Virus record (IMG/VR): IMGVR_UViG_3300013102_000040
Span: 1 to 49,197 of that record
Strand: one strand, 5' to 3'
DNA from: a virus
DNA: 49,197 bases
The notes beneath the pieces are model-generated. The model was not told the origin of the DNA. It searched no databases and saw only the letters and a program-made list of their open reading frames with translations. A program made the position numbers and the translations under genes. Below, piece by piece: positions 14,173 to 25,314 of the stretch. Position 1 is the first letter of the stretch. Each line of letters starts with the position of its first letter.

Positions 14173-14204
14173 TGTATTTCCTTTGCTTGAGTTGTTGTTG
14201 ATAT

Positions 14205-14264
14205 GAATACTATATAACGAAAGGTAGGAGATGTACAATCCTACCCAACGTTACACAGTATTAC
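14205..14264 (-). promoter_or_regulatory. Palindromic promoter between the 14261 and 13981 genes
   Basis: -35 TTGTAC at 14238-14233, -10 TATAGT at 14214-14209. GGTAGGA/TCCTACC arms around the -35 and outer ATACTATATAACG/CGTTACACAGTAT arms. The stop codon of the 14261 gene is in the outer right arm. Confidence 0.8.
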
Positions 14265-14614
14265 TCGTCGATGGACTGGAAGTAGAGGTCGAAGGTCTCA
14301 GACTCGGGACCGCATGCGAGTGCAACCCATTCCTCGACGTTCTTGTACGAGGCGCGACGATCAGTGTCACCGAGCTTCGAGAAGTCGAAGACCGTGTAGG
14401 TCAGTCGAAGCATGCCTTCCAGCTTGCCGTGGTACTTCTGCATTTCGAAGACACGCTGGTGGCTGGGCCCCGTGTAGTTGTAACCCTTATCGAGGTTGGC
14501 GATGTCTGCGAGTGCCTGATCGGAAACCTGCTTGCAAACCTTGCGGTAATCACCTGCAACCGTCTTGAGATCGTTGAGGAAGGATGCCTGGCGAGCAGTG
14601 ATGGGGAGCTTCAT
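14261..14614 (-). CDS. Hypothetical helical protein, 117 aa
   Basis: Not recognised. Starts at ATG 14614 (AAAGGAAAAAC upstream). Long helical segments (ARQASFLNDLKTVAGDYRKV, QRVFEMQKYHGKLEGMLRLT) and an acidic C-terminus. Single-gene unit. Confidence 0.7.
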   Translation of the reverse strand: MKLPITARQASFLNDLKTVAGDYRKVCKQVSDQALADIANLDKGYNYTGPSHQRVFEMQKYHGKLEGMLRLTYTVFDFSKLGDTDRRASYKNVEEWVALACGPESETFDLYFQSIDE

Positions 14615-14650
14615 TGTTTTTCCTTTGTTAGTATTTGTTGTTGATAAGAC

Positions 14651-14700
14651 TACTATATACTGCCTAGCATTGAATGTACAATCCAATGCTAGGCCGTACA
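14651..14700 (-). promoter_or_regulatory. Palindromic promoter with 11-pair perfect arms
   Basis: -35 TTGTAC at 14681-14676, -10 TATAGT at 14657-14652. Arms GCCTAGCATTG (14662-14672) and CAATGCTAGGC (14684-14694). Serves the 14614 gene; can terminate the 14703 gene. Confidence 0.8.
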
Positions 14701-14702
14701 GC

Positions 14703-14939
14703 TTAGTCCTTGATCATTGCGAAAAGGTCCTCGATTTCCTGAGCGTCGTGACCGGCGTAAACTCGGCAGTAGGCTTCAACTCGCTTGCGACGGCCCTCGA
14801 ACTTAATCTCGGGCCATCCACCTGCAGGGCCATGCTCCTTGAGAACGGTGACCTCGAGATCGTAAAGGCTTGCCATGTCGGCGGCGTATTCATGAACGTC
14901 TACGTCGTCTACGATTACGTCGAGGATGATGCTTGCCAT
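14703..14939 (-). CDS. Hypothetical protein, 78 aa
   Basis: Begins MASIILDVIVDDVDVHEYAA; alpha/beta, with a basic middle (EIKFEGRRKRVEAYCRVYAG). ATG 14939 follows AAAGGAAAAG. Not recognised. Single-gene unit. Confidence 0.7.
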   Translation of the reverse strand: MASIILDVIVDDVDVHEYAADMASLYDLEVTVLKEHGPAGGWPEIKFEGRRKRVEAYCRVYAGHDAQEIEDLFAMIKD

Positions 14940-14969
14940 TTTCTTTTCCTTTGTTTGCGGTTGTTGATA

Positions 14970-15018
14970 GTTATATCTTATACAAGAGTGGGAGCTTTGT
15001 ACACTCCCACTCTCATAT
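14970..15018 (-). promoter_or_regulatory. Palindromic promoter
   Basis: -35 GTGTAC at 15004-14999, -10 TAAGAT at 14980-14975. Arms GAGTGGGAG and CTCCCACTC. Serves the 14939 gene. Confidence 0.7.
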
Positions 15019-15019
15019 A

Positions 15020-15268
15020 TTAATCTTCGTAAACGAGGACTCGCACGAAATCGGCGACGCGGTAAATGGTGGTCCAATTCGTCTGCTCATGCGTGACGTT
15101 GAGGACGACGAGTGAGCCTGTCACCTGAGCATTGTTGACTTTGACCCAATCAATGGTCAGGGCCTCGTCTTCAGTGATCTCGTGTACTCCTTCATACTCG
15201 AACTGAAGGTCGTCCAGGAAGGCGATGGTGTCACCAGCGTCGATGTTGGTGATGGATTCAATGTACAT
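15020..15268 (-). CDS. Hypothetical beta-rich protein, 82 aa
   Basis: Not recognised. Strand-rich (GSLVVLNVTHEQTNWTTIYR, DFVRVLVYED) after an acidic N-terminal region. Start overlaps the stop of the upstream gene (TAATG), so the pair is translationally coupled. Confidence 0.7.
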   Translation of the reverse strand: MYIESITNIDAGDTIAFLDDLQFEYEGVHEITEDEALTIDWVKVNNAQVTGSLVVLNVTHEQTNWTTIYRVADFVRVLVYED

Positions 15269-15423
15269 TACTTGCCCATCCTTTCAGCAATTGCGACCGT
15301 CATTGCGTCACCGTCGATGGGAGTTTCGATGGCGTAGGCGAAGAAATTGTCTTCGAGCTGACGAACCGTCCAGTCCCGACCAAATGGCTGGTAGACCGTG
15401 TAATCATTGAATGGCTTGAACAT
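15268..15423 (-). CDS. Hypothetical protein, 51 aa
   Basis: ATG 15423 with AAAGGAGA upstream. Product MFKPFNDYTVYQPFGRDWTV... ends AIAERMGK. No family recognised. First gene of a two-gene operon with its own palindromic promoter. Confidence 0.65.
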   Translation of the reverse strand: MFKPFNDYTVYQPFGRDWTVRQLEDNFFAYAIETPIDGDAMTVAIAERMGK

Positions 15424-15449
15424 TTGAATCTCCTTTGATGTTGTTGATA

Positions 15450-15511
15450 GTTATACTATATAACACCTCTCATAGAATGTACACCCTATGAGAGATGTTA
15501 CAGAGTATTAC
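15450..15511 (-). promoter_or_regulatory. Palindromic promoter
   Basis: -35 GTGTAC at 15484-15479, -10 TATAGT at 15460-15455. Inner arms CTCTCATAG/CTATGAGAG plus outer TAACA/TGTTA. The stop of the 15508 gene lies in the outer arm. Confidence 0.8.
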
Positions 15512-15798
15512 TTCTTCTGTGAAGCGAGCCACGCTGTACGAAGAATGTCCTCGACGATTTGACACTCGTCCGGGTTGTTGTGATCGTGTTCCTTCATCAT
15601 GTGACCGTATTCACGATCAGCTGCGCGATCAAGGTAACCGTCCTCCCACGCCCAGTACAAATCACCGGAGCAAGGGTTACCATCCAGACCCTGATGGTTG
15701 GGAATGTCGAGGTTGTCTGAGTAGTTCCAACCCCGTCGATACGCTCCTTGGAACTTACGACGATCTTCCTTCTTGACTTGCCACAGACGAGTAACCAT
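15508..15798 (-). CDS. Hypothetical protein, 96 aa
   Basis: Not recognised. Rich in Trp, Tyr, Asp and Arg (AYRRGWNYSDNLDIPNHQGL, YWAWEDGYLDRAADREYGHM) with two cysteines (C43, C79) and several His; C-terminal helix. Single-gene unit; AAGGAGAAC before the ATG. Confidence 0.7.
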   Translation of the reverse strand: MVTRLWQVKKEDRRKFQGAYRRGWNYSDNLDIPNHQGLDGNPCSGDLYWAWEDGYLDRAADREYGHMMKEHDHNNPDECQIVEDILRTAWLASQKK

Positions 15799-15824
15799 TT
15801 TGTTCTCCTTGATTGTTGTTGATA

Positions 15825-15886
15825 AGAATACTATATAATGCTTCCTAGGATTTGTACAATCCTAAGAAACATTACACAGTATTACC
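15825..15886 (-). promoter_or_regulatory. Palindromic promoter
   Basis: -35 TTGTAC at 15859-15854, -10 TATAGT at 15835-15830. Arms TTCCTAGGATT/AATCCTAAGAA (one mismatch) and outer ATAATG/CATTAC. Includes the stop of the 15882 gene. Confidence 0.8.
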
Positions 15887-16163
15887 TGTTGACGTACTGC
15901 CAGAACTCTTCGAACTTGACCTTGAAGTCTTCAATGAAGTCATCGATTGGTTCGAGGTCTGAAAAGACCCATTCAGCGAGCAAGTTTTCAGGGTCCATGA
16001 CAACGTTGAGGTACGAACCGTCATAGGATATACTGCCTACAATGAAGGCTTCGTCGCTGTCTCGGAAGAAGACGATCCAAGGACCATCGAACTCAGGCTG
16101 TTCGTAGTTTTCGTTGTACGTAAATCCTGCAGCCTTCAAAGCTGCAATGAGTTCTTCCTTCAT
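15882..16163 (-). CDS. Hypothetical acidic protein, 93 aa
   Basis: Not recognised. Alpha/beta and acidic (WIVFFRDSDEAFIVGSISYD, DDFIEDFKVKFEEFWQYVNR). Rightmost gene of this leftward block, divergent from the 16309 island. AAAGGAGCATC before the ATG. Confidence 0.7.
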   Translation of the reverse strand: MKEELIAALKAAGFTYNENYEQPEFDGPWIVFFRDSDEAFIVGSISYDGSYLNVVMDPENLLAEWVFSDLEPIDDFIEDFKVKFEEFWQYVNR

Positions 16164-16199
16164 GATGCTCCTTTATGTTGTTGTGTTGTTGATAAGACT

Positions 16200-16229
16200 A
16201 CTATATACAACTATCGAGTATAAGTACAT
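16200..16229 (-). promoter_or_regulatory. Promoter, ATGTAC-N18-TATAGT
   Basis: -35 at 16229-16224, -10 at 16205-16200 for the 16163 gene. Divergent from the promoter at 16241; TTCAAAGT (16230-16237) and ACTTTGAA (16244-16251) form an eight-base inverted repeat near the two -35 boxes. Confidence 0.75.
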
Positions 16230-16240
16230 TCAAAGTTTAA

Positions 16241-16270
16241 GTGTACTTTGAAGGTTTTACTGGATATTAT
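16241..16270 (+). promoter_or_regulatory. Promoter, GTGTAC-N18-TATTAT
   Basis: -35 at 16241-16246, -10 at 16265-16270. The leader begins with TATCAACAACAAAACAACAAC, the rightward version of the common leader, then AGGAG. Confidence 0.8.
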
Positions 16271-16308
16271 AGAACTATCAACAACAAAACAACAACTTAG
16301 GAGACATC

Positions 16309-16461
16309 ATGAACGTCAACGCCCGATCCGCAAAGAAATGCTGCAAGATGCACGACGCCGATTACGGCCACTCAAACCGCTCGCGGCCCAAGAAGAGGTT
16401 CGCTCGAGCAGTCAAGCGTCGCGGTGAGCAGCAGTGGAAGCGTGAGCTCCTTGGCTCTTAA
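16309..16461 (+). CDS. Small strongly basic protein, 50 aa
   Basis: ATG 16309 preceded by TTAGGAGACATC. Product MNVNARSAKKCCKMHDADYG... continues with RSRPKKRFARAVKRRGEQQW; about a third Lys or Arg. The charge suggests nucleic-acid binding; C11, C12, H15 and H21 could bind a metal. No family recognised. First gene of the rightward island. Confidence 0.65.
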   Translation: MNVNARSAKKCCKMHDADYGHSNRSRPKKRFARAVKRRGEQQWKRELLGS

Positions 16462-16465
16462 GAAA

Positions 16466-16702
16466 ATGAACAACAGTGGGGAAGTCCCGTTTGGGATGTG
16501 CCTCACTGGAAACCACGATCGTTGTCACCGCTCCTATTGGGATGAACGCGGCAGAGCGGTATATTGCCAGTGCGCTTGCGACAATCATGGAGTCAACTAC
16601 GTAGCACCTGAAGGACCGTCAGCACTCGCTCTCGAGTTGATGGAGAAGTACTACGGTGAACGCAAAGAACAGAAACCTCGTCCACATTTGATGGAAGACT
16701 GA
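16466..16702 (+). CDS. Putative zinc-binding protein, 78 aa
   Basis: ATG 16466 is preferred over the GTG at 16424 inside the preceding gene. A Cys/His cluster (MCLTGNHDRCHRSYW, YCQCACDNHG) has the C-x4-H-x2-C...C-x-C-x-C-x2-H pattern common in short actinophage zinc proteins. The C-terminus is helical and basic. Follows the basic protein by four bases. Confidence 0.7.
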   Translation: MNNSGEVPFGMCLTGNHDRCHRSYWDERGRAVYCQCACDNHGVNYVAPEGPSALALELMEKYYGERKEQKPRPHLMED

Positions 16703-16750
16703 TTGTACAAGTAGCTGTTGATGGTATATAGTAGTATCATCAACAGCTAC
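16703..16750 (+). promoter_or_regulatory. Promoter with 13-base perfect inverted repeat around the -10 box
   Basis: TTGTAC at 16703-16708 and TATAGT at 16727-16732, spacer 18. GTAGCTGTTGATG (16711-16723) and CATCAACAGCTAC (16738-16750) flank the -10 box symmetrically; the right arm is the start of the leader. Confidence 0.8.
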
Positions 16751-16763
16751 TAAGGAGAAAACA

Positions 16764-16943
16764 ATGGAAGTAACCGGAGTCCACAACCCCAAGTCCACTC
16801 CCGAAACTCGTGCAGCAGATCGCAACGTTGCTGAAGCATTGGGAAACATCGAGCGCATCCTCACATCGCAGCCATTCTTGATCGCCTACGCGGTTGCAGC
16901 CCTCATCTTCGCCGGTTGGGTGGAAGGAAATGTTCACTTTTAG
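16764..16943 (+). CDS. Small tail-anchored membrane protein, 59 aa
   Basis: ATG 16764 after AAGGAGAAAACA. A polar N-terminal part (residues 1-36) is followed by a hydrophobic segment FLIAYAVAALIFAGWV and a short end, so it is probably anchored by its C-terminus. Unknown function. Its promoter is in the gap before it. Confidence 0.7.
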   Translation: MEVTGVHNPKSTPETRAADRNVAEALGNIERILTSQPFLIAYAVAALIFAGWVEGNVHF

Positions 16944-16984
16944 CCGAAAGTAGATTACAATAGAGCTAACAGATAAATAAAAGA

Positions 16985-17022
16985 GAATCTAGCAGGTGAG
17001 AGAATCCCTGCTAGATTTTCTC
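16985..17022 (+). terminator. Terminator after the membrane protein
   Basis: GAATCTAGCAGG / CCTGCTAGATT stem (11 pairs) followed by TTTTCTC. The gene at 17035 starts right behind it, so some read-through is likely. Confidence 0.7.
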
Positions 17023-17034
17023 ATTAAGGACGTT

Positions 17035-17358
17035 ATGATTATTTGGACAACAGCAGGTCTGTTCTCAATTGTCGAGGATGAGAATCCTTATTACGTCATC
17101 ATCGAAGCGCGCAACAAAGACGAAGCCGAAATCTTGAAGAGCACACTTCGACTTGTGGACCTCGAGGATGAGATCACCGATGAGTACCAAACTCAGCATG
17201 GCTACGCGCTCAGGCTATTGAAGACTGATGCTCAGGAGTGGCTCAGGTTCGAGTTTGACCATTGGATGAAGGAGCCATTAGCTCGCCAGTTTGGGAAGCT
17301 TGAGGACACACAGAGCGCCATTGCGCTCGAGCAACTACTCATGAATTTGGAGAAATAG
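17035..17358 (+). CDS. Hypothetical protein, 107 aa
   Basis: ATG 17035 has TAAGGACGTT upstream; the GTG at 16996 would place the start in the terminator stem. Alpha/beta with an acidic middle (YYVIIEARNKDEAEILKSTL, VDLEDEITDEYQ) and a helical C-terminus. No family recognised. Ends directly before the next start. Confidence 0.7.
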   Translation: MIIWTTAGLFSIVEDENPYYVIIEARNKDEAEILKSTLRLVDLEDEITDEYQTQHGYALRLLKTDAQEWLRFEFDHWMKEPLARQFGKLEDTQSAIALEQLLMNLEK

Positions 17359-17517
17359 ATGGATTGGAAAAATCTGTCATGGGCTGCAGCAGGTGCATTA
17401 GCATTCCTCGTGCTCATGTTTGTCACCCTGGTCATACCGAATATTCCGGTAATAGTGACATCAGCCTTTGCGTCCGCGAGTGTCACAGCAGCTATCCTGG
17501 CACTTCGAGACCGGTAG
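17359..17517 (+). CDS. Small membrane protein with two transmembrane segments, 52 aa
   Basis: Starts on the base after the preceding stop. Two hydrophobic segments (AAGALAFLVLMFVTLVI and ASASVTAAILAL) joined by PNIPVIVTSAF, ending RDR. The shape recalls small phage holins, but there is no lysin gene beside it in this window, so that reading is only a possibility. Confidence 0.65.
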   Translation: MDWKNLSWAAAGALAFLVLMFVTLVIPNIPVIVTSAFASASVTAAILALRDR

Positions 17518-17532
17518 CTCACCAAACCCCTC

Positions 17533-17567
17533 AAAAGCCCCTCCTTTCGGAAGGGCTTTTGTGGTTT
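17533..17567. terminator. Bidirectional terminator between convergent genes
   Basis: AAAAGCCC...GGGCTTTT stem with inner CTCC/GGAA partly paired and a TTTC loop; T- and A-rich flanks serve both directions. Confidence 0.85.
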
Positions 17568-17573
17568 AAGCTT

Positions 17574-17888
17574 CTAGTAGTTGAAGCCCATGGCTTTGCG
17601 TTCTTCTGCAGCTTCGCGATATTTGCGAGCCGTTTCTTCTCCGTAGAGGGGCTTGTCTTCGTTTCCCTCTGCGATGTTCTTCTTGAGGGAGGAGACTGCG
17701 TGGTATACAGCCTGCGAGTGGATCATGCCGATGAGGTTCGTGAGGGTGTGGGCTTCTCGAACTGCACGGAGCCGGCGTTCCGGGGTGTCGAGCTCTGCGA
17801 GGTAGGGTGCCGAGTTGCGTTCTCCCGGCCAGATGCTCGTCTTCATTGCTTCGATCTTCTCGTCCGAGTAGTTGTCTGCTGCACTCAT
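17574..17888 (-). CDS. Hypothetical helical protein, 104 aa
   Basis: Not recognised. Mostly helical (ERRLRAVREAHTLTNLIGMI, EETARKYREAAEERKAMGFN). First of the long run of leftward single-gene units that fills 17.6-26.1 kb. AAAGGAGCAAG before the ATG. Confidence 0.7.
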   Translation of the reverse strand: MSAADNYSDEKIEAMKTSIWPGERNSAPYLAELDTPERRLRAVREAHTLTNLIGMIHSQAVYHAVSSLKKNIAEGNEDKPLYGEETARKYREAAEERKAMGFNY

Positions 17889-17921
17889 TGTCTTGCTCCT
17901 TTGTGGTTGTTGTTGTTGATA

Positions 17922-17982
17922 AGAATACTATATAACACTCTCTAGGATTTGTACACTTCCTAGAGAATGTTACGCAGTATTA
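17922..17982 (-). promoter_or_regulatory. Palindromic promoter
   Basis: -35 GTGTAC at 17956-17951, -10 TATAGT at 17932-17927. Arms CTCTAGGA/TCCTAGAG, outer AACA/TGTT. Contains the stop of the 17980 gene. Confidence 0.8.
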
Positions 17983-18219
17983 CTTCTCGCGACGATCAAG
18001 CATCGCTTCCTCGAAGAGAGGGTGGGTTTCGAAATCAGGCTCTCCGTTTTCGAGCTGCCAAGGGAGGTCGAAGAGGAGAACGAGTGGCATTCCGCCATAG
18101 TGGAAAGTATCGCAGTCCTCGTCATGAGTCCAGTATCCACCCTTCTCTTCGAGCTCCACGAGGGTGGCGAAGTATTCAGGGTCCATCAGACCTTCGAGAA
18201 CTTTGGTTGAGCTGTGCAT
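17980..18219 (-). CDS. Hypothetical acidic protein, 79 aa
   Basis: Not recognised. Acidic with many His and aromatic residues (GYWTHDEDCDTFHYGGMPLV); ends in a charged helix (FEEAMLDRREK). Single-gene unit; AAGGAGATTC before the ATG. Confidence 0.7.
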   Translation of the reverse strand: MHSSTKVLEGLMDPEYFATLVELEEKGGYWTHDEDCDTFHYGGMPLVLLFDLPWQLENGEPDFETHPLFEEAMLDRREK

Positions 18220-18245
18220 TTGAATCTCCTTAGCGGTTGTTGATA

Positions 18246-18304
18246 AGATAACTATACAACAAAGGGGAGAGTTTGTACACTCTCCCCTCTGCTGTTACCC
18301 TCTA
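18246..18304 (-). promoter_or_regulatory. Palindromic promoter
   Basis: -35 GTGTAC at 18280-18275, -10 TATAGT at 18256-18251. Arms AGGGGAGAG/CTCTCCCCT, outer AACA/TGTT. Confidence 0.75.
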
Positions 18305-18679
18305 ATCGAGGGTCGACCAATTCCCCTCATCGAGGAGACCGATCGACTTGGCGAAAACGCCTTGCGACTGGGCCCAATCGAGCATCGCCTTCTTGAGCTT
18401 CCACTTCGGGGTGAGGTTGCCGAGCGGGTGCTGCACGGGCACGGTCTTCCCGTCCTTCAGCGTGGCGTGGATGTAGGAGACGTCGCAGAAGCGGCCGCCG
18501 AAGGTACGCTCCTCGAGGATGCGAACGCGGGTGATCTTACCGCCGAGGGACTTGATCTCGCCGAGCGAGTAGTTGCGGGAGTAGTCCACCTCGTTGTGGT
18601 ACTCGTGGCCGTTGACGAGACCGTTGGTCTCACGGGCGCCGTAGATGGAGCGGTCGGTGGTTGCGAATGCGTTGGTCAT
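18302..18679 (-). CDS. Hypothetical protein, 125 aa
   Basis: Not recognised. N-terminal region is Asn/Tyr-rich; the middle is beta-rich (SLGGKITRVRILEERTFGGR) and the C-terminus helical (KWKLKKAMLDWAQSQGVFAK). Slightly larger than its neighbours. AAGGAGAAC before the ATG. Confidence 0.7.
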   Translation of the reverse strand: MTNAFATTDRSIYGARETNGLVNGHEYHNEVDYSRNYSLGEIKSLGGKITRVRILEERTFGGRFCDVSYIHATLKDGKTVPVQHPLGNLTPKWKLKKAMLDWAQSQGVFAKSIGLLDEGNWSTLD

Positions 18680-18711
18680 TTTGTTCTCCTTGTTAGTATT
18701 TGTTGTTGATA

Positions 18712-18773
18712 AGAATACTATATAACACCGACTAGAGAATGTACACTCTCTAACCGATGTTACTTAGTATTAC
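18712..18773 (-). promoter_or_regulatory. Palindromic promoter, weaker arms
   Basis: -35 GTGTAC at 18746-18741, -10 TATAGT at 18722-18717. Inner AGAGA/TCTCT and outer AACACCG/CGATGTT arms, with mismatches between. Contains the stop of the 18770 gene. Confidence 0.7.
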
Positions 18774-19018
18774 TGAATGGCTTCGCCGATGTTGGTGTCG
18801 AGCCAACGGATGAGACCCTCGCGGTCATCGGGGTCCGTCGAGAAGAGGTCTTCCGCCTGCGGTTCGTCGTCGTACCAAAGGATGAGGACTCCATCCGAAG
18901 CGGAGAGGGTGAAGGCCACGCCGTTGACGGTGAAGTTGACGATGGCTTCTCCGCCATTGCGGGACTTTGCTTCGTACTCGTCGACGAGGCGGTCGAAAAG
19001 CTGTGCGGACTTCTGCAT
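18770..19018 (-). CDS. Hypothetical acidic protein, 82 aa
   Basis: ATG 19018 with AAAGGAGAAAC upstream; the longer open frame runs through the promoter and is rejected. Alpha/beta (IVNFTVNGVAFTLSASDGVL) with an acidic end. No family recognised. Confidence 0.7.
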   Translation of the reverse strand: MQKSAQLFDRLVDEYEAKSRNGGEAIVNFTVNGVAFTLSASDGVLILWYDDEPQAEDLFSTDPDDREGLIRWLDTNIGEAIQ

Positions 19019-19046
19019 TTGTTTCTCCTTTGTTGTGCTGTTGATA

Positions 19047-19109
19047 GTTATACTATATAACACCACCCACCAAATGTACACTTGATGGGCGATGTTACAG
19101 AGTATTACT
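19047..19109 (-). promoter_or_regulatory. Palindromic promoter
   Basis: -35 GTGTAC at 19081-19076, -10 TATAGT at 19057-19052. Arms CCCACCAA/TTGATGGG (one mismatch), outer AACA/TGTT. Contains the stop of the 19105 gene. Confidence 0.75.
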
Positions 19110-19302
19110 TGCGGTATTCGAAGGAGGCTTCGTCGTTCGTGTTGATTCGTACGAAGTTGAGGCGGCGGTCGGTGGCTGAAACGAAGGTGTAGGGCCACTC
19201 GTCCGTCAAGAGGTCGATGATCAGTTCGTCGACAGTTCCTTCGAAATAATCGACGGTCGAGGTTTCGTTGACGGCATCGTAGAAACGAACTTCGATGGGC
19301 AT
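19105..19302 (-). CDS. Hypothetical acidic protein, 65 aa
   Basis: ATG 19302 after AAAGGAGCTC. Product MPIEVRFYDAVNETSTVDYF... is alpha/beta and acidic. Not recognised. Its promoter region lacks the palindrome; the upstream gene has a separate terminator instead. Confidence 0.7.
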   Translation of the reverse strand: MPIEVRFYDAVNETSTVDYFEGTVDELIIDLLTDEWPYTFVSATDRRLNFVRINTNDEASFEYRK

Positions 19303-19335
19303 TTGAGCTCCTTTGTTGTTGTTGTTGATAAGATA

Positions 19336-19365
19336 ACTATATGTCAGTTTGCAACAAATGTACAC
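19336..19365 (-). promoter_or_regulatory. Non-palindromic promoter, GTGTAC-N18-TATAGT
   Basis: -35 at 19365-19360, -10 at 19341-19336. No matching arms around it. Confidence 0.75.
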
Positions 19366-19433
19366 TGTATATTGTGTGACCTTCTGGGTCACCCACAGCA
19401 GGCCCATGAAGTAGCTATTGCCCATTAAATGGG

Positions 19434-19462
19434 GAGAGGCCCAGCGGTTAGCTGGACCTCTC
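19434..19462 (-). terminator. Terminator of the 19467 gene
   Basis: GAGAGGCCCAGC / GCTGGACCTCTC stem (one mismatch) with a five-base loop, followed on the minus strand by CCCCATTTAAT. Paired with the non-palindromic promoter 70 bases further. Confidence 0.7.
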
Positions 19463-19466
19463 TCGT

Positions 19467-19877: not shown

Positions 19878-19911
19878 TTTGATTTCTCCTTAGGTTGTTT
19901 TGTTGTTGATA

Positions 19912-19973
19912 AGAATACTATATAACACTGGGTACCAAATGTACACTTGATACCCAATGTTACTTAGTATTAC
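19912..19973 (-). promoter_or_regulatory. Palindromic promoter
   Basis: -35 GTGTAC at 19946-19941, -10 TATAGT at 19922-19917. Arms TGGGTACCAA/TTGATACCCA (one mismatch), outer AACA/TGTT. Contains the stop of the 19970 gene. Confidence 0.8.
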
Positions 19974-20221
19974 AACTCGAAGTCGCGGGCTTCGTCGAGT
20001 TCCGGAACCGTGAAGACGTTTCCGTCTCCGCGAAGGAAGGCGTAGAAGAGGGTGCCGTCCTCCATCTTGGCCTCGTACCATACGCGGTGGTTGATGAGGA
20101 AGATGTTTTCGGTGAAGCCGAACGGGATGGCGTCTCCCGTATATTCGATGATCTCGGCCTTGATGCCGTCTACGAGGCGGTCCTGCTCTTCGAGGAGGGC
20201 GAGGGTTGCGGGATTTGCCAT
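19970..20221 (-). CDS. Hypothetical protein, 83 aa
   Basis: Not recognised. N-terminal helix (LALLEEQDRLVDGIKAEIIE) then beta strands (ENIFLINHRVWYEAKMEDGT). AAGGAGAAATTC before the ATG. Confidence 0.7.
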   Translation of the reverse strand: MANPATLALLEEQDRLVDGIKAEIIEYTGDAIPFGFTENIFLINHRVWYEAKMEDGTLFYAFLRGDGNVFTVPELDEARDFEL

Positions 20222-20251
20222 TTGAATTTCTCCTTGCGGTTGTTGTTGATA

Positions 20252-20313
20252 AGAATACTATATACTGCCTCTCACCGAATGTACAATCCGGTGAGAAGCC
20301 GTACGTAGTATTA
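20252..20313 (-). promoter_or_regulatory. Palindromic promoter
   Basis: -35 TTGTAC at 20286-20281, -10 TATAGT at 20262-20257. Arms TCTCACCG/CGGTGAGA. The outer arm holds the stop of the 20311 gene. Confidence 0.8.
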
Positions 20314-20532
20314 CCACATTTTGTAATACAGGTTGTCGAAGGAAGGTGCGGTGGAAAAGTCGTCATCTTCGAAGGAGATGTGCATCACGAACATTCCTTG
20401 GGACCAAAGTCCAACTTCATCATGTTCAGAGGACCATTTCCAGGTGGCTCCTTCTTCGAGGAGCATTTCTACAACTTCGATGGTGCGGGAGTCTGAAGCA
20501 TTTTCGAGGAAGTTCTTGATTCGAGTTTCCAT
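20311..20532 (-). CDS. Hypothetical protein, 73 aa
   Basis: Not recognised. Helical start (METRIKNFLENASDSRTIEV) then a short beta-rich part rich in Trp and Asp. AAAGGAGAAAAA before the ATG. Its promoter lies inside the upstream gene. Confidence 0.7.
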   Translation of the reverse strand: METRIKNFLENASDSRTIEVVEMLLEEGATWKWSSEHDEVGLWSQGMFVMHISFEDDDFSTAPSFDNLYYKMW

Positions 20533-20562
20533 TTTTTCTCCTTTAGGGTTGTTGATAGTTCT

Positions 20563-20592
20563 ACTATATCACCTATTCGATGACATGTACAC
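20563..20592 (-). promoter_or_regulatory. Promoter embedded in the upstream gene
   Basis: -35 GTGTAC at 20592-20587 within the last codons of the 20573 gene; -10 TATAGT at 20568-20563. No palindrome and no separate terminator, so read-through is likely. Confidence 0.75.
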
Positions 20593-20890
20593 TACCATTT
20601 TCAAGAGCCTCAGAAGTGTGTGGGAGCTGCGCAATTTTGCGGGCATATGCAACTACATCCGCGGGGGTCTGCCATCCCAGAACGTCACCGTGAAGCACTG
20701 AAACATCAATATACCAATCTTCTTCCGTGCCGCGGATGACCACGCATTCGAAAAGTCCGGACTTGTAGCCGTAGCTACCATAATGACGGATGACAGAGAT
20801 TCCGTAACCGTTCGGGAAAAAGGCCTTCTTCGCAAAGTCACCTTCAGGTACGTCGAAGTCCGTTTCGCGGAGTGCGATTTCATTGGTCAT
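20573..20890 (-). CDS. Hypothetical protein, 105 aa
   Basis: Not recognised. Beta-rich middle with aromatic residues (NGYGISVIRHYGSYGYKSGL, WYIDVSVLHGDVLGWQTPAD) and a helical end. AAAGGAGAAAAC before the ATG. Confidence 0.7.
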   Translation of the reverse strand: MTNEIALRETDFDVPEGDFAKKAFFPNGYGISVIRHYGSYGYKSGLFECVVIRGTEEDWYIDVSVLHGDVLGWQTPADVVAYARKIAQLPHTSEALENGSVHVIE

Positions 20891-20915
20891 TGTTTTCTCC
20901 TTTGCGGTTGTTGAT

Positions 20916-20972
20916 AGTTCTACTATATACTAGGTGGGTGAGAATGTACACTCACCCACCCGTGTCACCCTA
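20916..20972 (-). promoter_or_regulatory. Palindromic promoter with 10-pair perfect arms
   Basis: -35 GTGTAC at 20951-20946, -10 TATAGT at 20927-20922. Arms GGTGGGTGAG/CTCACCCACC. Confidence 0.8.
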
Positions 20973-21392
20973 AAGCTGCGCAACCTGACGGGTGTAGCTC
21001 CATTCAACCTTACCGAAAACGTTGCTCGGAAGGGCATCGTAGACTCTCGAGGGCATTACGGCGATGATCTTGAAGTTGCGTCCGGGGCGCGCAGTTTCCA
21101 TTGCGGCATGATGCATTTCGAGTGCGGAGTCCACTGAGCCGGCCCACTGACTTCCGATGCCGAGCTGCTCACGGTCACCCTCCCACTCGCTCACAATTGT
21201 GAAGGACGTTTTGGTGGGCTGGCCCTTTGCATCATGTACGTAGTTGGCGGGAATGTCCCAAAGGTCAGGCTCAGTACGGCGGCGGACCGTGTAAGTGTCC
21301 GTCTTGTTGTCATAGCTTTCAACGACACAATCGTTGTCGTCCCAGCCGATGAAGTAGTTGATGACGCGGACTGGGTGGCCTTTGCGGAACAT
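20970..21392 (-). CDS. Hypothetical protein, 140 aa
   Basis: Not recognised. N-terminal half suggests a small barrel (KGHPVRVINYFIGWDDNDCV, KTDTYTVRRRTEPDLWDIPA); the C-terminal half is alpha/beta. Largest of the single-gene units here. AAAGGAGAAAC before the ATG. Confidence 0.7.
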   Translation of the reverse strand: MFRKGHPVRVINYFIGWDDNDCVVESYDNKTDTYTVRRRTEPDLWDIPANYVHDAKGQPTKTSFTIVSEWEGDREQLGIGSQWAGSVDSALEMHHAAMETARPGRNFKIIAVMPSRVYDALPSNVFGKVEWSYTRQVAQL

Positions 21393-21419
21393 TTGTTTCT
21401 CCTTTTGTGGTTGTTGATA

Positions 21420-21474
21420 GTTATACTATATACTAGAGGGTGGGCTTTGTACACCCACCCTCTCAAGTATTACA
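21420..21474 (-). promoter_or_regulatory. Palindromic promoter
   Basis: -35 GTGTAC at 21454-21449, -10 TATAGT at 21430-21425. Arms AGAGGGTGGG/CCCACCCTCT, outer ATACT/AGTAT. Contains the stop of the 21470 gene. Confidence 0.8.
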
Positions 21475-21676
21475 AGCGGGCGAAATATTCTCCGTCTTCC
21501 TCTTCGACGATGAGAGTTTCGTACGTCTTCCAACCATCTCCTGTGGTGTAGAAGGAAACTGAGAGGTCGTCTCCTTCTTCCTTGATGTTGGTGATTTCGA
21601 AGTGCCAATCACGGGTGTCCTCGCCTTTGCGGAGGAAGAATTCGCGGAGTGCGACTTCAATGTTTCCGAGGTGCAT
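21470..21676 (-). CDS. Hypothetical protein, 68 aa
   Basis: ATG 21676 after AAAGGAGAGAAA. Helix (IEVALREFFLRKGEDTRDWH) followed by strands (DDLSVSFYTTGDGWKTYETL) and an acidic end. Not recognised. Confidence 0.7.
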   Translation of the reverse strand: MHLGNIEVALREFFLRKGEDTRDWHFEITNIKEEGDDLSVSFYTTGDGWKTYETLIVEEEDGEYFARL

Positions 21677-21701
21677 TTTCTCTCCTTTGTAGCTGTTGAT
21701 A

Positions 21702-21763
21702 GTTCTACTATATACTAGAGAGGGCGGAATGTACACACCCTCTCTAGCATTATCTCATATTAC
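21702..21763 (-). promoter_or_regulatory. Palindromic promoter with 10-pair perfect arms
   Basis: -35 GTGTAC at 21736-21731, -10 TATAGT at 21712-21707. Arms CTAGAGAGGG/CCCTCTCTAG. Confidence 0.8.
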
Positions 21764-21969
21764 TCGTCGTCGAGCTGGCGGTACTTATCCGCGCGGTCCT
21801 CTTCGATCGAGAGTTGAAGGGAGGAAACGACCTCGTACTTGGTGCCGTCTTCCTTACGAGCTTCCCAACGGTTGAGCTCGTCTGCGCGGCCTTGAGCATC
21901 GCGTTCGAACTGGTACGGAATGTTGTGGAAGGGGTTGGTGCGGCCAATTTCGCGGACGTAGAAATGCAT
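21760..21969 (-). CDS. Hypothetical protein, 69 aa
   Basis: ATG 21969 after AAAGGAGAAAACG. Product MHFYVREIGRTNPFHNIPYQ... is charged and helical towards the end (SIEEDRADKYRQLDDE). Not recognised. Confidence 0.7.
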   Translation of the reverse strand: MHFYVREIGRTNPFHNIPYQFERDAQGRADELNRWEARKEDGTKYEVVSSLQLSIEEDRADKYRQLDDE

Positions 21970-22003
21970 TTCGTTTTCTCCTTTAGTAGTTGTTGATAAG
22001 ACT

Positions 22004-22033
22004 ACTATATATTGCGGTTTCCCAAATGTACAC
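22004..22033 (-). promoter_or_regulatory. Non-palindromic promoter, GTGTAC-N18-TATAGT
   Basis: -35 at 22033-22028, -10 at 22009-22004. The upstream gene ends instead at the hairpin at 22101-22129. Confidence 0.75.
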
Positions 22034-22100
22034 TTGAATTTTGGTGACGTTTTGGGAGGCGATGGGTATGCGGGCAATAACTACTTCATCGAGAAAACAA

Positions 22101-22129
22101 GAGAGGCTCTGGGGTTAGCAGAGCCTCTC
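22101..22129 (-). terminator. Terminator of the 22139 gene
   Basis: GAGAGGCTCTG / CAGAGCCTCTC, 11 perfect pairs with a seven-base loop, then TTGTTTTC on the minus strand. Confidence 0.85.
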
Positions 22130-22138
22130 TCGTATTAG

Positions 22139-22417
22139 CTAGAGGTTGAAGTCTTCGGCGTAGCTAAGTGCATCCTTTTCCGAATCGACTCCAACGAGGG
22201 TCTCGTCCCATGCGGCCTTTTCGGGGTATCCGCGGGTTACCCAAAAGGTGGTGTGGTATTCGTCTTCGATTTGGTACCAAACGACTTCGTTGACGGAATC
22301 GACGAGAATCTTTCCCGTGCAGGTATGTGCGTGGGGGAAACCTTCACGCTTTGCAATGCGGGCATTCTCTGCGTCGATGAAGAGGATGTCTGCGGTGATT
22401 GCTTCGAAGGTGTTCAT
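22139..22417 (-). CDS. Hypothetical protein, 92 aa
   Basis: Not recognised. Alpha/beta with a His-rich segment (KREGFPHAHTCTGKILVDSV) and strands (EVVWYQIEDEYHTTFWVTRG). AAGGAGAAACC before the ATG. Confidence 0.7.
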   Translation of the reverse strand: MNTFEAITADILFIDAENARIAKREGFPHAHTCTGKILVDSVNEVVWYQIEDEYHTTFWVTRGYPEKAAWDETLVGVDSEKDALSYAEDFNL

Positions 22418-22445
22418 TTTGGTTTCTCCTTATTGGTTGTTGATA

Positions 22446-22508
22446 GTTATACTATATAACACGAGGAATGGAATGTACAATCCATTCCCCATGTTACTTA
22501 GTATTACT
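22446..22508 (-). promoter_or_regulatory. Palindromic promoter
   Basis: -35 TTGTAC at 22480-22475, -10 TATAGT at 22456-22451. Arms GGAATGGA/TCCATTCC. Contains the stop of the 22504 gene. Confidence 0.8.
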
Positions 22509-22743
22509 TTGAGACGGAAAGTCGATTCGCGGAGGAACCGTAGGCCCAATGTCCGTTGAAACGGTAAGCTTCCCATTCGAAGGTTTCATTGGGCTCGAGG
22601 TCTTGGAAGGTAGCGCGGGCATCGTCACCCTTTCCTTCAACTTTGATGAGGCGGTAGAAATCCCAGCGATCTTGGTTCATTCCTCCGTGGAAGTGAAGTT
22701 CGAAGATTTCTCCAACATTCTTGGTGCTGATGCGCTTTGCCAT
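22504..22743 (-). CDS. Small conserved-domain protein, 79 aa, paralogue of 24003 and 11694 products
   Basis: Begins MAKRISTKNVGEIFELHFHG and ends with EWEAYRFNGHWAYGSSANRL. The 24003 product begins MAKRIAAGNVDKEFVLQIEG, and both share with the 11694 product a pattern of a Trp, then YRF/IRFK, G-H-W and a final strand. This looks like a small beta domain duplicated within the genome. Function unknown. Confidence 0.75.
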   Translation of the reverse strand: MAKRISTKNVGEIFELHFHGGMNQDRWDFYRLIKVEGKGDDARATFQDLEPNETFEWEAYRFNGHWAYGSSANRLSVSK

Positions 22744-22775
22744 TTTGGTTTCTCCTTTAGTATTTGTTGTTGATA

Positions 22776-22831
22776 GTTATACTATATACTAGATGGCGAG
22801 CGATGTACACTCGCCACCTAATATATTAATG
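22776..22831 (-). promoter_or_regulatory. Palindromic promoter
   Basis: -35 GTGTAC at 22810-22805, -10 TATAGT at 22786-22781. Arms TAGATGGCGAG/CTCGCCACCTA (one mismatch). Confidence 0.8.
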
Positions 22832-22836
22832 ATATA

Positions 22837-23061
22837 TCAGTCCTCTTCTTCGAGCTCCATTATCTCGAGGAGCGGGTAGTGCTGAGTGATTCGATCCCAG
22901 TAAACGATGTGGCGGACGGTATCATCCTCGTCGCTGACTTCCACCCAACGTTCTTTGTAGGAAGTGTAGCGGACTTCCCAGCGGCCTTCCAAACCGGTGG
23001 CCTCGATTTCGTCTCCATTGTGGAGGTTGTTGTAATAGTAGATTACCTTTTCGCGATCCAT
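22837..23061 (-). CDS. Hypothetical acidic protein, 74 aa
   Basis: Not recognised. Beta-rich (GDEIEATGLEGRWEVRYTSY, DDTVRHIVYWDRITQHYPLL) with an acidic tail EIMELEEED. AAGGAGAAACG before the ATG. Confidence 0.7.
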   Translation of the reverse strand: MDREKVIYYYNNLHNGDEIEATGLEGRWEVRYTSYKERWVEVSDEDDTVRHIVYWDRITQHYPLLEIMELEEED

Positions 23062-23091
23062 CGTTTCTCCTTAGTAGCTGTTGATAAGACT

Positions 23092-23121
23092 ACTATATAC
23101 TGCTGAAGAGCGGATGTACAA
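23092..23121 (-). promoter_or_regulatory. Non-palindromic promoter, TTGTAC-N18-TATAGT
   Basis: -35 at 23121-23116, -10 at 23097-23092. A separate terminator closes the upstream gene. Confidence 0.75.
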
Positions 23122-23198
23122 TCCAATTTTGGAAGGTTTGGGCGGCTTTTGGGAGGCTGCTGGTATGCGGATGATGGGTGCTTCATCCAAGAAAGGGT

Positions 23199-23225
23199 GG
23201 AGGCCCTGTGGTTAGCAGGGCCTCC
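23199..23225 (-). terminator. Terminator of the 23232 gene
   Basis: GGAGGCCCTG / CAGGGCCTCC, ten perfect pairs, seven-base loop, then ACCCTTTCTTGG on the minus strand. Confidence 0.8.
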
Positions 23226-23231
23226 GAGGGT

Positions 23232-23591
23232 TTAGGCGACGGGCTTCAGCTTGACGTACCCGTAGCGGTCCAAGTGGATGGTGTACTCGGTGCCGGCGAT
23301 TTCGAGCGTGTCGTTCACCGAGACTTCGATTCGCTGCTTGGGCTCCTGACGGTGTGCGGTGATCATCGCGCCGTTCTGGCTCATGAAGGCGACGGGACCC
23401 GACTCGATAGGACCCTGGTCAACGATCCGTCCCTTGCCGTCCTTCGTCCATCCGAAGATCGAGTAGGTGCTGTACTGGCCGTAGCGGTTGGGGTTGTCGA
23501 TGAAGTGGAGCTCGACGTTGCGGGGGCTCTGGAAGTAAGCGGGCTCTTCGGGGAAGGTGGTGGACGGCTGGGTTTCGATGATGTGCTTCAT
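23232..23591 (-). CDS. Hypothetical protein, 119 aa
   Basis: Not recognised. Beta-rich throughout (RNVELHFIDNPNRYGQYSTY, RIEVSVNDTLEIAGTEYTIH) with a Gly/Tyr-containing end (DRYGYVKLKPVA). AAGGAGAAATC before the ATG. Confidence 0.7.
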   Translation of the reverse strand: MKHIIETQPSTTFPEEPAYFQSPRNVELHFIDNPNRYGQYSTYSIFGWTKDGKGRIVDQGPIESGPVAFMSQNGAMITAHRQEPKQRIEVSVNDTLEIAGTEYTIHLDRYGYVKLKPVA

Positions 23592-23619
23592 GATTTCTCC
23601 TTATTGGTTGTTGTTGATA

Positions 23620-23672
23620 GTTATACTATATACTAGGAATGGGGCGGTGTACACCCCATTCCCAGTATTACC
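23620..23672 (-). promoter_or_regulatory. Palindromic promoter
   Basis: -35 GTGTAC at 23654-23649, -10 TATAGT at 23630-23625. Arms GGAATGGGG/CCCCATTCC, outer TACT/AGTA. Confidence 0.8.
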
Positions 23673-23677
23673 GAATG

Positions 23678-23914
23678 TTACTCGGCGAGCTCGTAGTAAT
23701 CCGGGTCGTAGCAGCTACCCTGCGTTTCGGCAACCGACTTGTTGAGGGCGGAGACGAGACCCTTCGCGGTTTTGGGGTTGCGGTTGATCTTGGGGTTCCA
23801 CGAGTTTCCGCATTCGAGGGTGTAGGAGAACGTCTTGACGAGTTCCTCGAGCGTTCCGGTGTAGGGGCTTTCGGAACCGCGGCGGGTCTTGATGATGGTG
23901 ATCTGCTTTGCCAT
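23678..23914 (-). CDS. Hypothetical protein, 78 aa
   Basis: Not recognised. Basic start (MAKQITIIKTRRGSESPYTG), then helical (TLEELVKTFSYTLECGNSWN) with two cysteines, acidic end. AAGGAGAAATTC before the ATG. Confidence 0.7.
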   Translation of the reverse strand: MAKQITIIKTRRGSESPYTGTLEELVKTFSYTLECGNSWNPKINRNPKTAKGLVSALNKSVAETQGSCYDPDYYELAE

Positions 23915-23945
23915 TTGAATTTCTCCTTATTGGTTGTTGTTGATA

Positions 23946-24006
23946 AGAATACTATATAATGCGGATCAGGATTTGTACAATCCTGAGCCACATTACTTAG
24001 TATTAC
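23946..24006 (-). promoter_or_regulatory. Palindromic promoter
   Basis: -35 TTGTAC at 23980-23975, -10 TATAGT at 23956-23951. Arms TCAGGATT/AATCCTGA, outer ATAATG/CATTAC. Contains the stop of the 24003 gene. Confidence 0.8.
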
Positions 24007-24248
24007 TTGAGGACGGTGACTTTCCGCTGCGGCAGGCCGCGGGTGTTCGTGACCCATCCGGACTTGAAGCGGATGACTTTCCACTGTCCCCATCGACCGT
24101 CGGGGAAGTGGGAGTCTGCGAAGGTCGCGGTCGACCAGTCACCATTCTTTTCGAACTTGAGGAGGCGGCAAGTGAGGGTGCGGTCGTTTCCTTCGATCTG
24201 AAGGACGAACTCTTTGTCGACGTTTCCTGCGGCGATTCGCTTTGCCAT
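24003..24248 (-). CDS. Small conserved-domain protein, 81 aa, paralogue of 22504 and 11694 products
   Basis: ATG 24248 after AAAGGAGAAAAG. Begins MAKRIAAGNVDKEFVLQIEG and ends GQWKVIRFKSGWVTNTRGLP plus RKVTVLK. The WKVIRFK strand is nearly the WKIIRFK of the AT-hook protein at 11694, and the start matches the 22504 protein. Confidence 0.75.
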   Translation of the reverse strand: MAKRIAAGNVDKEFVLQIEGNDRTLTCRLLKFEKNGDWSTATFADSHFPDGRWGQWKVIRFKSGWVTNTRGLPQRKVTVLK

Positions 24249-24282
24249 TTTCTTTTCTCCTTTAGTAGTTGTTGATAAGACT

Positions 24283-24312
24283 ACTATATACCACGGTGAA
24301 GCAGATGTACAA
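24283..24312 (-). promoter_or_regulatory. Non-palindromic promoter, TTGTAC-N18-TATAGT
   Basis: -35 at 24312-24307, -10 at 24288-24283. A separate terminator closes the upstream gene. Confidence 0.75.
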
Positions 24313-24383
24313 TCCAAACCGAAACTTTTTGGTGAGGTTTTGGGCGGCTTTGAGAACGCGGATGAAGGGTGATATGCCTAAAA

Positions 24384-24413
24384 CCTCTGAGTGACCCGAA
24401 GGCCACCCAGAGG
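24384..24413 (-). terminator. Terminator of the 24424 gene
   Basis: CCTCTGAGTG / CACCCAGAGG stem (one mismatch), ten-base loop, followed by TTTTAGG on the minus strand. Confidence 0.75.
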
Positions 24414-24423
24414 TCTCGCGGCT

Positions 24424-24663
24424 TTAGCCGAGGATTTCGTCGATCGAGCATCCGTCGAGCAGGGCTCCGTAAGCGTCTTCGACATTTCCGGCGCTGCCGA
24501 CCAGGTGGGCGAGCACTTCGCGGAGAGCGGTCGCGATTTGACCGTAAACTCCGTGCTGACCCGCGATATCGAAGGACGGGCTTTCGTTTGCGAGGAGGCG
24601 GGCTTCGTTGAGCTTGATTGCGAGGGCTTTGTGGGTTTCGAAGCGGTTATCCGAGCGGTTCAT
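24424..24663 (-). CDS. Hypothetical helical protein, 79 aa
   Basis: Not recognised. Helical throughout (FETHKALAIKLNEARLLANE, GQIATALREVLAHLVGSAGN). AAAGGAGAAAC before the ATG. Confidence 0.7.
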   Translation of the reverse strand: MNRSDNRFETHKALAIKLNEARLLANESPSFDIAGQHGVYGQIATALREVLAHLVGSAGNVEDAYGALLDGCSIDEILG

Positions 24664-24690
24664 TTTGTTTCTCCTTTGTTGTTGTTGATA

Positions 24691-24751
24691 GTTATACTAT
24701 ATAACACCTTCTAGGATTTGTACAATCCTAGAAGATGTTACTTAGTATTAC
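24691..24751 (-). promoter_or_regulatory. Palindromic promoter, clearest example
   Basis: -35 TTGTAC at 24725-24720, -10 TATAGT at 24701-24696. A 61-base inverted repeat centred on 24721: 28-base arms with 24 paired positions, including CTTCTAGGATT/AATCCTAGAAG. The TAA stop of the 24748 gene is in one arm and pairs with the -10 side of the other. Confidence 0.85.
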
Positions 24752-24978
24752 TTGGCGGTGAAGGGCTGGGCTGCGGTGTAACCGGTGGGTGCGACCCACA
24801 TCGGTCCCTCGATGACATCGCGGTACGGGCTGGCCTCTTTGGGGGTCCAGATGATGTGGTACTTTACGACGGGTCCGAAGGGGTCCAGAGGACGAGCGGT
24901 GCACTTGTAGATGGCACCTTCTCCACCGAACTTGTTCTCGACGTAAGCGGTCATTTCTTCGAGGTTCTTGAGTTCCAT
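24748..24978 (-). CDS. Hypothetical protein, 76 aa
   Basis: Not recognised. Helix at the start (LEEMTAYVENKFGGEGAIYK) then strands with many Pro (GPVVKYHIIWTPKEASPYRD). AAAGGAGAAGA before the ATG. Confidence 0.7.
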   Translation of the reverse strand: MELKNLEEMTAYVENKFGGEGAIYKCTARPLDPFGPVVKYHIIWTPKEASPYRDVIEGPMWVAPTGYTAAQPFTAK

Positions 24979-25011
24979 TTTCTTCTCCTTTGTTGTGGTG
25001 TTGATAGTTAT

Positions 25012-25041
25012 ACTATATACTGCTTTTCAGCGGATGTACAC
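25012..25041 (-). promoter_or_regulatory. Promoter, GTGTAC-N18-TATAGT
   Basis: -35 at 25041-25036, immediately after the stop of the 25042 gene; -10 at 25017-25012. No palindrome and no separate terminator. Confidence 0.75.
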
Positions 25042-25245
25042 TCAGTTTGCGAGTGACTTTGCGACGGCCATGAACTGGTTGACGGATTCGCGAGGGCCTT
25101 TCACGGAGACACGGGTGGCATCCTCGTTGATGCCGAAGGTGAGATCGTAGAAGGAAGGAGAAGTTGCGAGGCGGGTGATCAGGGTGAGTCCCTGGATGTA
25201 GGTGAAGCCTTCGAGGTTTACGTGGGCTTTCTTGTTCTTGAACAT
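25042..25245 (-). CDS. Hypothetical protein, 67 aa
   Basis: ATG 25245 after AAAGGAGAAAAA. Product MFKNKKAHVNLEGFTYIQGL... is alpha/beta with a basic start. Not recognised. Confidence 0.7.
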   Translation of the reverse strand: MFKNKKAHVNLEGFTYIQGLTLITRLATSPSFYDLTFGINEDATRVSVKGPRESVNQFMAVAKSLAN

Positions 25246-25276
25246 TTTTTCTCCTTTAGAAGTTGTTGATAAGAAT

Positions 25277-25314
25277 ACTATATACTGAAGAGAGGGTGGT
25301 GTACACCCTCTCTC
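25277..25314 (-). promoter_or_regulatory. Palindromic promoter
   Basis: -35 GTGTAC at 25306-25301, -10 TATAGT at 25282-25277. Arms AGAGAGGG/CCCTCTCT. Outer arms are not conserved. Confidence 0.75.

Follow-up and report, generated by a model that had tools for sequence, protein, structure and literature searches.

Promoters nested in pairing-conserved hairpins at the ends of upstream genes in an actinophage gene array

Introduction

Why would a promoter lie inside a long inverted repeat whose arms differ from copy to copy and still pair? This question is raised by a virus record from IMG/VR (IMGVR_UViG_3300013102_000040) of 49,197 bases, which was analysed over its whole length and is called the window in the following. 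From about 13.7 to 26.2 kilobases (kb), it carries an array of mostly small genes on the minus strand, with the exception of a short plus-strand part at about 16.3-17.5 kb, and in gaps of this array the promoter of the next gene coincides with a palindrome. The original prediction counted 20 such palindromic promoters in part of the array and proposed that each is a dual element, namely a 3'-end element of one gene and the promoter of the next one. In our analysis, it is well supported that the hairpin serves the upstream gene as a 3'-end element and is nested with the promoter that follows, which fits both the anatomy of the elements and the natural controls that the same array provides.

The terminase (5354-6814) and portal (38744-40384) of the window match phage families. 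The best named relatives of the portal are the Arthrobacter phages Atuin, Mimi, Racecar and Talia1610 of about 190 kb (46-47% identity), followed by Microbacterium phages, and we therefore regard the window as a piece of a large actinophage.

Results

The promoter has a fixed core on the minus strand, consisting of the -35 hexamer TGTACA, a constant spacing of 17 nucleotides (nt) and the -10 hexamer TATAGT, and is followed by genes with ribosome sites. The pattern TGTACA-N14/18-TATATAGTA occurs 26 times in the window, 25 times on the minus strand, against an expectation of none. This fits sigma-70/sigma-A promoters, in which the two hexamers are spaced by 16-18 nt upstream of same-strand genes. 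A looser pattern returned 36 minus-strand copies in the window, and the pairing scores of their own arms were bimodal, with 20 copies at 8.5 or above and the others mostly at 2-5. This high-scoring set takes in a copy at 8376, outside the part of the array first considered, and misses the copy at 14237, which has an internal loop yet folds well. All 20 predicted elements could be located by their -35 coordinates (Table 1), and together with the element at 8341-8400 the palindromic copies number 21.

Each of these palindromic copies has its core inside an inverted repeat of 17-28 base pairs (bp) beginning at the upstream stop codon. The best copy (24691-24751) indeed pairs 24 of 28 positions by Watson-Crick pairs and two more by G.U, with a folding free energy (dG) of -31.8 kcal/mol and a z-score of -9.6. 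Strong inverted repeats amount to 27 in the array region, compared with 0-1 in shuffled sequences. Two points of the earlier description hold in part. The palindrome is centred near the GTAC of the -35 but not always exactly on it, the register of the 5' arm shifting by several nt while the spacing between -35 and -10 stays at 17. Likewise, the promoter lies within a palindrome in the 21 copies, but the window also contains 15 promoters of this kind that have none; therefore, promoter identity does not require the palindrome.

The two arms of an element belong together. When 3' arms were exchanged between the promoters of the window, pairing broke down, the own arms totalling 339.6 and the best of 20,000 permutations 224.6. 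When phage records were searched with the nucleotide sequence of the array, no match was obtained, and relatives were reached via the portal protein. The close relative found in this way, IMGVR_UViG_3300013308_000031 (71% portal identity, 42 promoter matches), repeated the result independently: 24 of 41 promoters were palindromic, with 407.8 for the own arms and 265.4 for the best of 20,000 permutations. For a covariation analysis, 28 elements from the window and the relative were anchored at their conserved flanks and compared by pair columns. Eight of the ten columns covary at the permutation limit (mutual information p=0.0005, a value to be taken as a guide, as the permutations ignore kinship between copies). 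These eight are paired in 93-100% of the elements, compared with 40-72% after permutation, and hold 2-5 pair types each, while the outermost column is an invariant T.G. The arms share neither a consensus nor a common half-site sequence. The claim that selection acts on symmetry and not on letters is thus borne out by arms without consensus, by own pairing that surpasses 20,000 permutations, and by covarying columns.

Compensatory changes in relatives, by which the prediction was to be judged, are seen in these pair columns and in orthologous gaps. The gap at 23653 (16870 in the relative) lies between orthologs with 84% and 64% identity, and in it the core is kept and both arms are replaced with pairing remaining high; in the gap at 18279 (15133 in the relative), also between orthologous genes, the arms differ and pairing is kept. 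Among Mimi, Racecar and Talia1610, in which most flanking proteins are 94-100% identical, a G-C pair is swapped to C-G between Mimi 8241 and Racecar 8323, and the gaps show matched insertions at 10952/11540 and a matched change at 12576. The comparison of Mimi with Atuin yielded no orthologous gap pairs.

Part of the matched changes is whole-stem copying rather than independent compensatory mutation. In the large change between Mimi 12206 and Talia1610 12220, the Talia1610 stem is letter-identical to its own stem at 9726. Within a genome, a whole stem has been copied from gap to gap, displacing a different stem (Talia1610 9726 and 12228; Mimi 9724 and 12213). Judging from these sequences, stems are probably copied between gaps as cassettes by apparent conversion via the flanking conserved boxes. 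Since copying keeps pairing without compensatory mutation, it must be allowed for in covariation counts.

Does the pairing matter in DNA or in RNA? Any Watson-Crick pair becomes G.T by one transition and A.C by another, so that symmetry kept in DNA only, or by neutral repair, should leave both equally, whereas an mRNA hairpin tolerates G.U and not A.C. The type of mismatch therefore separates the two constraints. Read in the sense of the upstream mRNA and counted apart from the fixed T.G pair next to the -10, the non-Watson-Crick pairs of the variable arms were G.U and A.C in ratios of 16:0 in the window and 13:0 in the relative, 29:0 together. Over all array inverted repeats, the ratios were 24:2 in Mimi, 21:3 in Racecar, 24:1 in Talia1610 and 11:1 in Atuin; Mimi, Racecar and Talia1610 are nearly identical and their counts therefore stand as one. 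Arm-swapped controls gave a null G.U share of 0.58, so base composition does not account for the excess, for which strand-biased C-to-T mutation is a small caveat. The sense RNA also folds more stably than its complement for 20 of the 21 elements in the window and for 24 of 24 in the relative, the mean dG in the window being -28.8 kcal/mol for sense and -20.7 kcal/mol for antisense. Because transcripts from each promoter begin downstream of the stem, only the RNA of the upstream gene can fold it. The assignment of the folded form to the 3' end of the upstream mRNA agrees with these results, and the sequence comparisons give good support to the view that pairing is selected as RNA on the upstream transcript.

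The same counts bear on readings that do without RNA. An operator for a repressor or activator, or a cruciform at the -35, would suit a palindrome whose centre is the palindromic -35 TGTACA. However, the arms lack the common half-site of an operator, and 29 G.U pairs against no A.C would be unexpected if pairing mattered in DNA alone, which makes a DNA-level role very improbable. Replication template switching could perfect imperfect inverted repeats without any selection, and the whole-stem copying (Talia1610 12228 equals 9726) shows that mutational processes act here. We nevertheless give this explanation scarcely any credence: it predicts equal numbers of G.U and A.C, no tie to stop codons and no either/or pattern with separate hairpins (see below), and although strand-biased C-to-T mutation could add some asymmetry, it would hardly produce 29:0. 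Equally far-fetched is a bidirectional promoter with symmetric -10s flanking a shared -35 and yielding antisense RNA. In some copies the outer arm opposite the -10 does read TTAGTATTAC on the other strand, but this hexamer is not conserved (ttAGTAT, agAGTAT, acAGTAT, gcAGTAT), and no antisense promoter overlaps a hairpin in any of seven phages (Mimi, Atuin, Big4, Pumpernickel, Cece, Zooman and A3Wally). On these grounds we rejected an operator in DNA and a cruciform as well as the neutral origin of the palindromes and a promoter acting in both directions.

The position of the elements is tied to the upstream gene. In palindromic promoters, the -35 sits 16-27 nt past the upstream stop in 40 of 44 cases, mostly at 23-24 nt. 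Non-palindromic promoters fall mainly into two classes, one overlapping the preceding gene at its end (-28 to +1) with no hairpin and the other lying about 100 nt or more downstream of the upstream stop; in 13 non-palindromic cases, a separate stem-loop is found between stop and promoter (see Table 1 for examples). From this either/or pattern we infer that the nested hairpin takes the place of the ordinary 3' stem-loop of other array genes. Fisher's test of the pattern is partly forced by geometry, short gaps having no room for a second hairpin, and we therefore put weight on the distance pattern and the separate hairpins.

Table 1. Coordinates of nested hairpin-promoters and stem-loops in the window
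Feature	Position	Strand	-35	Remarks
Nested hairpin-promoter	14205-14264	-	14237-14232	weakest copy, internal loop
Nested hairpin-promoter	14646-14710	-	14680-14675	dG -34.1
Nested hairpin-promoter	14979-15019	-	15003-14998	variant -10
Nested hairpin-promoter	15449-15512	-	15483-15478	
Nested hairpin-promoter	15824-15887	-	15858-15853	
Nested hairpin-promoter	17921-17985	-	17955-17950	
Nested hairpin-promoter	18256-18295	-	18279-18274	flanking genes orthologous in relative
Nested hairpin-promoter	18712-18774	-	18745-18740	
Nested hairpin-promoter	19046-19109	-	19080-19075	
Nested hairpin-promoter	19914-19971	-	19945-19940	
Nested hairpin-promoter	20252-20315	-	20285-20280	
Nested hairpin-promoter	20933-20960	-	20950-20945	
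Nested hairpin-promoter	21430-21470	-	21453-21448	
Nested hairpin-promoter	21701-21764	-	21735-21730	
Nested hairpin-promoter	22445-22508	-	22479-22474	
Nested hairpin-promoter	22784-22826	-	22809-22804	
Nested hairpin-promoter	23631-23668	-	23653-23648	arms wholly different in orthologous gap of relative
Nested hairpin-promoter	23945-24008	-	23979-23974	
Nested hairpin-promoter, best copy	24690-24752	-	24724-24719	24/28 Watson-Crick pairs
Nested hairpin-promoter	25271-25328	-	25305-25300	
21st palindromic element	8341-8400	-	8376	outside predicted range; similar stem in relative at 1712
Separate stem-loop	19434-19462	-		after stop of gene 19877-19467; next promoter 19364 non-palindromic
Separate stem-loop, U-rich tail	22094-22136	-		after stop of gene 22417-22139; next promoter 22032 non-palindromic
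Separate stem-loop	23199-23225	-		after stop of gene 23591-23232; next promoter 23120 non-palindromic
Separate stem-loop ending UUUU	24380-24417	-		after stop of gene 24663-24424; next promoter 24311 non-palindromic
Separate stem-loop	25669-25706	-		after stop of gene 26127-25735; next promoter 25594 non-palindromic
Terminator-like stem-loop, T runs on both strands	17533-17560	.		convergent gene junction, no promoter present

In Mimi and Atuin, the left arm shows the same design in different letters, in the order of stop codon, conserved box (TTACAAAAMTTGAATA or AACAAAAACTTCGGTA), 5' arm, TTGACA in the loop, 3' arm within the 17-nt spacer, and -10. The nested design, with unrelated sequence, also fills the left arms of Racecar and Talia1610. 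Mimi has 26 gaps of at least 40 nt and Atuin 18, and a sense promoter overlaps the hairpin in 15 and 6 of them, respectively; in Big4, Pumpernickel, Cece, Zooman and A3Wally, each phage has 1-4 such gaps. A stricter scan returned nine copies each in Mimi, Racecar and Talia1610 and five in Atuin, with zero in the controls and at most two at the other scanned loci. The conserved box after the stop codon is lineage-specific, with the sequence TTACAAAAMTTGAATA in Mimi, and AACAAAAACTTCGGTA and TAATACTAAGTAACAT in Atuin and the window, respectively; it pairs partly with the -10 region.

Searches with the array itself returned little. None of the nine array proteins tested matched Pfam, no relatives of the array protein 20970-21392 were found, and the search with a second array protein matched one short contig. 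Scanning viral contigs for the promoter pattern gave only scattered single matches, and Rfam gave nothing above the gathering score for 13600-26400, the sole sub-threshold hit being mir-875 (28 vs 84 bits).

Several neighbouring features were recorded. The divergent junction at 16163-16309 has a minus promoter at 16228, a plus promoter-like TGTACTTTGAAGG...TATTATAGAACTATCAACAAC and a further inverted repeat between them. At 34826-37366 (plus strand), a ribose-phosphate pyrophosphokinase gene adjoins one for nicotinamide phosphoribosyltransferase, a pair that could rebuild NAD+; the annotations of Mimi and Atuin contain homologues, plus an ADP-ribosyltransferase. A homing endonuclease-like gene (phrog_314) lies at 9848-10363 on the minus strand, and the relative has a copy with about 49% identity along part of the length. 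Right after the portal, an open reading frame of 1845 amino acids spans 40371-45908 (plus strand); the gene at that position in Mimi and Atuin is much longer and annotated as a DNA helicase.

Discussion

In our reading, the same bases serve two molecules. As RNA, they form the 3'-end hairpin of the upstream gene, beginning at or just past its stop codon; as DNA, they hold a sigma-70-type promoter for the gene that follows. The apical loop contains the -35, the 3' arm lies within the 17-nt spacer, and the -10 is found at the foot of the hairpin. The hairpin would end the upstream transcript by termination that needs no U-tract, possibly aided by the A/U-rich -10 as a weak RNA-DNA hybrid, and would shield the RNA end, after which polymerase would start anew at the nested promoter to give one small transcript per gene. 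The arms could drift freely because neither job reads their letters, the spacer being unspecific for the promoter and the stem needing pairing only. We lean, with somewhat more confidence than doubt, toward this nested pair of an upstream 3'-end hairpin that would act as a terminator without a U-tract and a promoter for the next gene. Termination without a U-tract and protection of the RNA end is most likely what the hairpin does.

Several features point to termination. Stable hairpins soon after the stop codon, as in canonical terminators, are present throughout (mean dG -28.8 kcal/mol, as above), and in position and form they match I-shaped terminators, which have a stem-loop without a U-tail at no more than 50 nt from the stop. 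U-rich tails are found on two of the separate hairpins in the window (22094-22136 and 24380-24417) and, in the spacer after the stem and before the -10, in the Microbacterium phage copies Pumpernickel 9281, Cece 9085 and Big4 15381. Other observations weigh against a terminator. No U-tract directly follows the nested stems, whose tails are the A/U-mixed -10, U-tracts being confined to some separate hairpins and a few relatives, and terminator-like sites number 15 where 12.6 are expected. Termination without U-tracts by actinobacterial RNA polymerase is itself disputed (Ahmad 2020 for, Czyz 2014 against, both cited in PMC12288462). The either/or pattern has exceptions, namely the junctions at 12187 and at 6700 in the relative as well as some distant promoters without a detected hairpin. 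Moreover, stems of this length might act as barriers to nucleases or be cut by RNase III.

A barrier of this kind, by which the hairpin would stabilise the mRNA 3' end and not terminate, is a possible though distinctly less probable alternative. Transcripts would then end further downstream, through Rho or by readthrough, and trimming would stop at the hairpin, which would block 3'-5' nucleases. It would account for nested stems without U-tracts, the selection at the RNA level fits it equally, and mycobacteria are, according to a review, mainly Rho-dependent with rare canonical terminators (PMC12288462). The U-rich tails on the two separate hairpins and on several nested copies in relatives speak for termination instead. 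Double-stranded RNase III substrates have a size range that covers stems of about 17-27 bp, as found in the window, and cleavage there would cut readthrough polycistronic RNA into single-gene mRNAs. We consider this quite unlikely, because nearly every array gene already has its own promoter, the Mimi stems have a median arm of only 14, and separate U-tailed hairpins occupy the same position.

If the nested hairpins do terminate, a transcription relay is conceivable but doubtful: polymerase would release the RNA at the hairpin, stay on the DNA and reinitiate within a few tens of bases at the nested promoter. Recycling and reinitiation of RNA polymerase after termination have been followed in a single-molecule in vitro system (PMC6978380), and would let a polymerase released at a terminator restart at a nearby promoter. 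Were the relay true, a small polymerase pool would serve dozens of successive genes, and the overlap of hairpin and promoter would be a designed coupling and not just a saving of space.

Dozens of times per genome, then, the same bases appear to be read twice, as RNA hairpin and as DNA promoter, and are conserved by pairing and not by sequence. Such elements are missed both by terminator finders that require a U-tract and by motif finders that require sequence, and in the open-access literature we found no description of arrays of nested hairpin-promoters (subscription papers were not covered). They offer a natural library for asking whether actinobacterial RNA polymerase terminates at U-less hairpins, and the cultured phages Mimi, Racecar and Talia1610 permit direct tests. 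The element may also be of use as a very compact insulator-promoter part.

Among known systems, intrinsic terminators share with these elements a stable RNA hairpin no more than 50 nt from the stop, the stability on the sense strand and, in several relatives, a U-tail; they differ in that most nested copies have no U-tract and that the loop and 3' arm double as a promoter. Ingham et al. are said to have described, in 1995, Rho-independent terminators without poly-U tails in the early region of Streptomyces phage phiC31, likewise as stem-loops between small genes of an actinophage. Cluster O mycobacteriophages and Cluster EG Microbacterium phages have repeated dyad motifs of 17-18 bp (PMC4351075, PMC7302621), likewise symmetric and numerous in short gaps, but those motifs have a fixed sequence (e.g. 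GATCAACCNNGGTTGATC), as expected for protein-binding sites; the paper on the Microbacterium phage motif reports a conserved sequence, and the word 'terminator' is absent from it (PMC7302621). In Cluster K mycobacteriophages, the SAS and ESAS also include imperfect inverted repeats that precede small genes in many short gaps. The half-sites of ESAS are 17 bp long, follow one consensus and lie beside the 13-bp SAS GGGATAGGAGCCC, and departures do not support RNA pairing according to the authors (PMC3203893). The arms described here do not follow the ESAS pattern, no search aimed at SAS having been made. They have no consensus and covary as RNA pairs, and the element is thus, as originally supposed, unlike ESAS: there the half-sites share a sequence, whereas here the pairing is the conserved feature.

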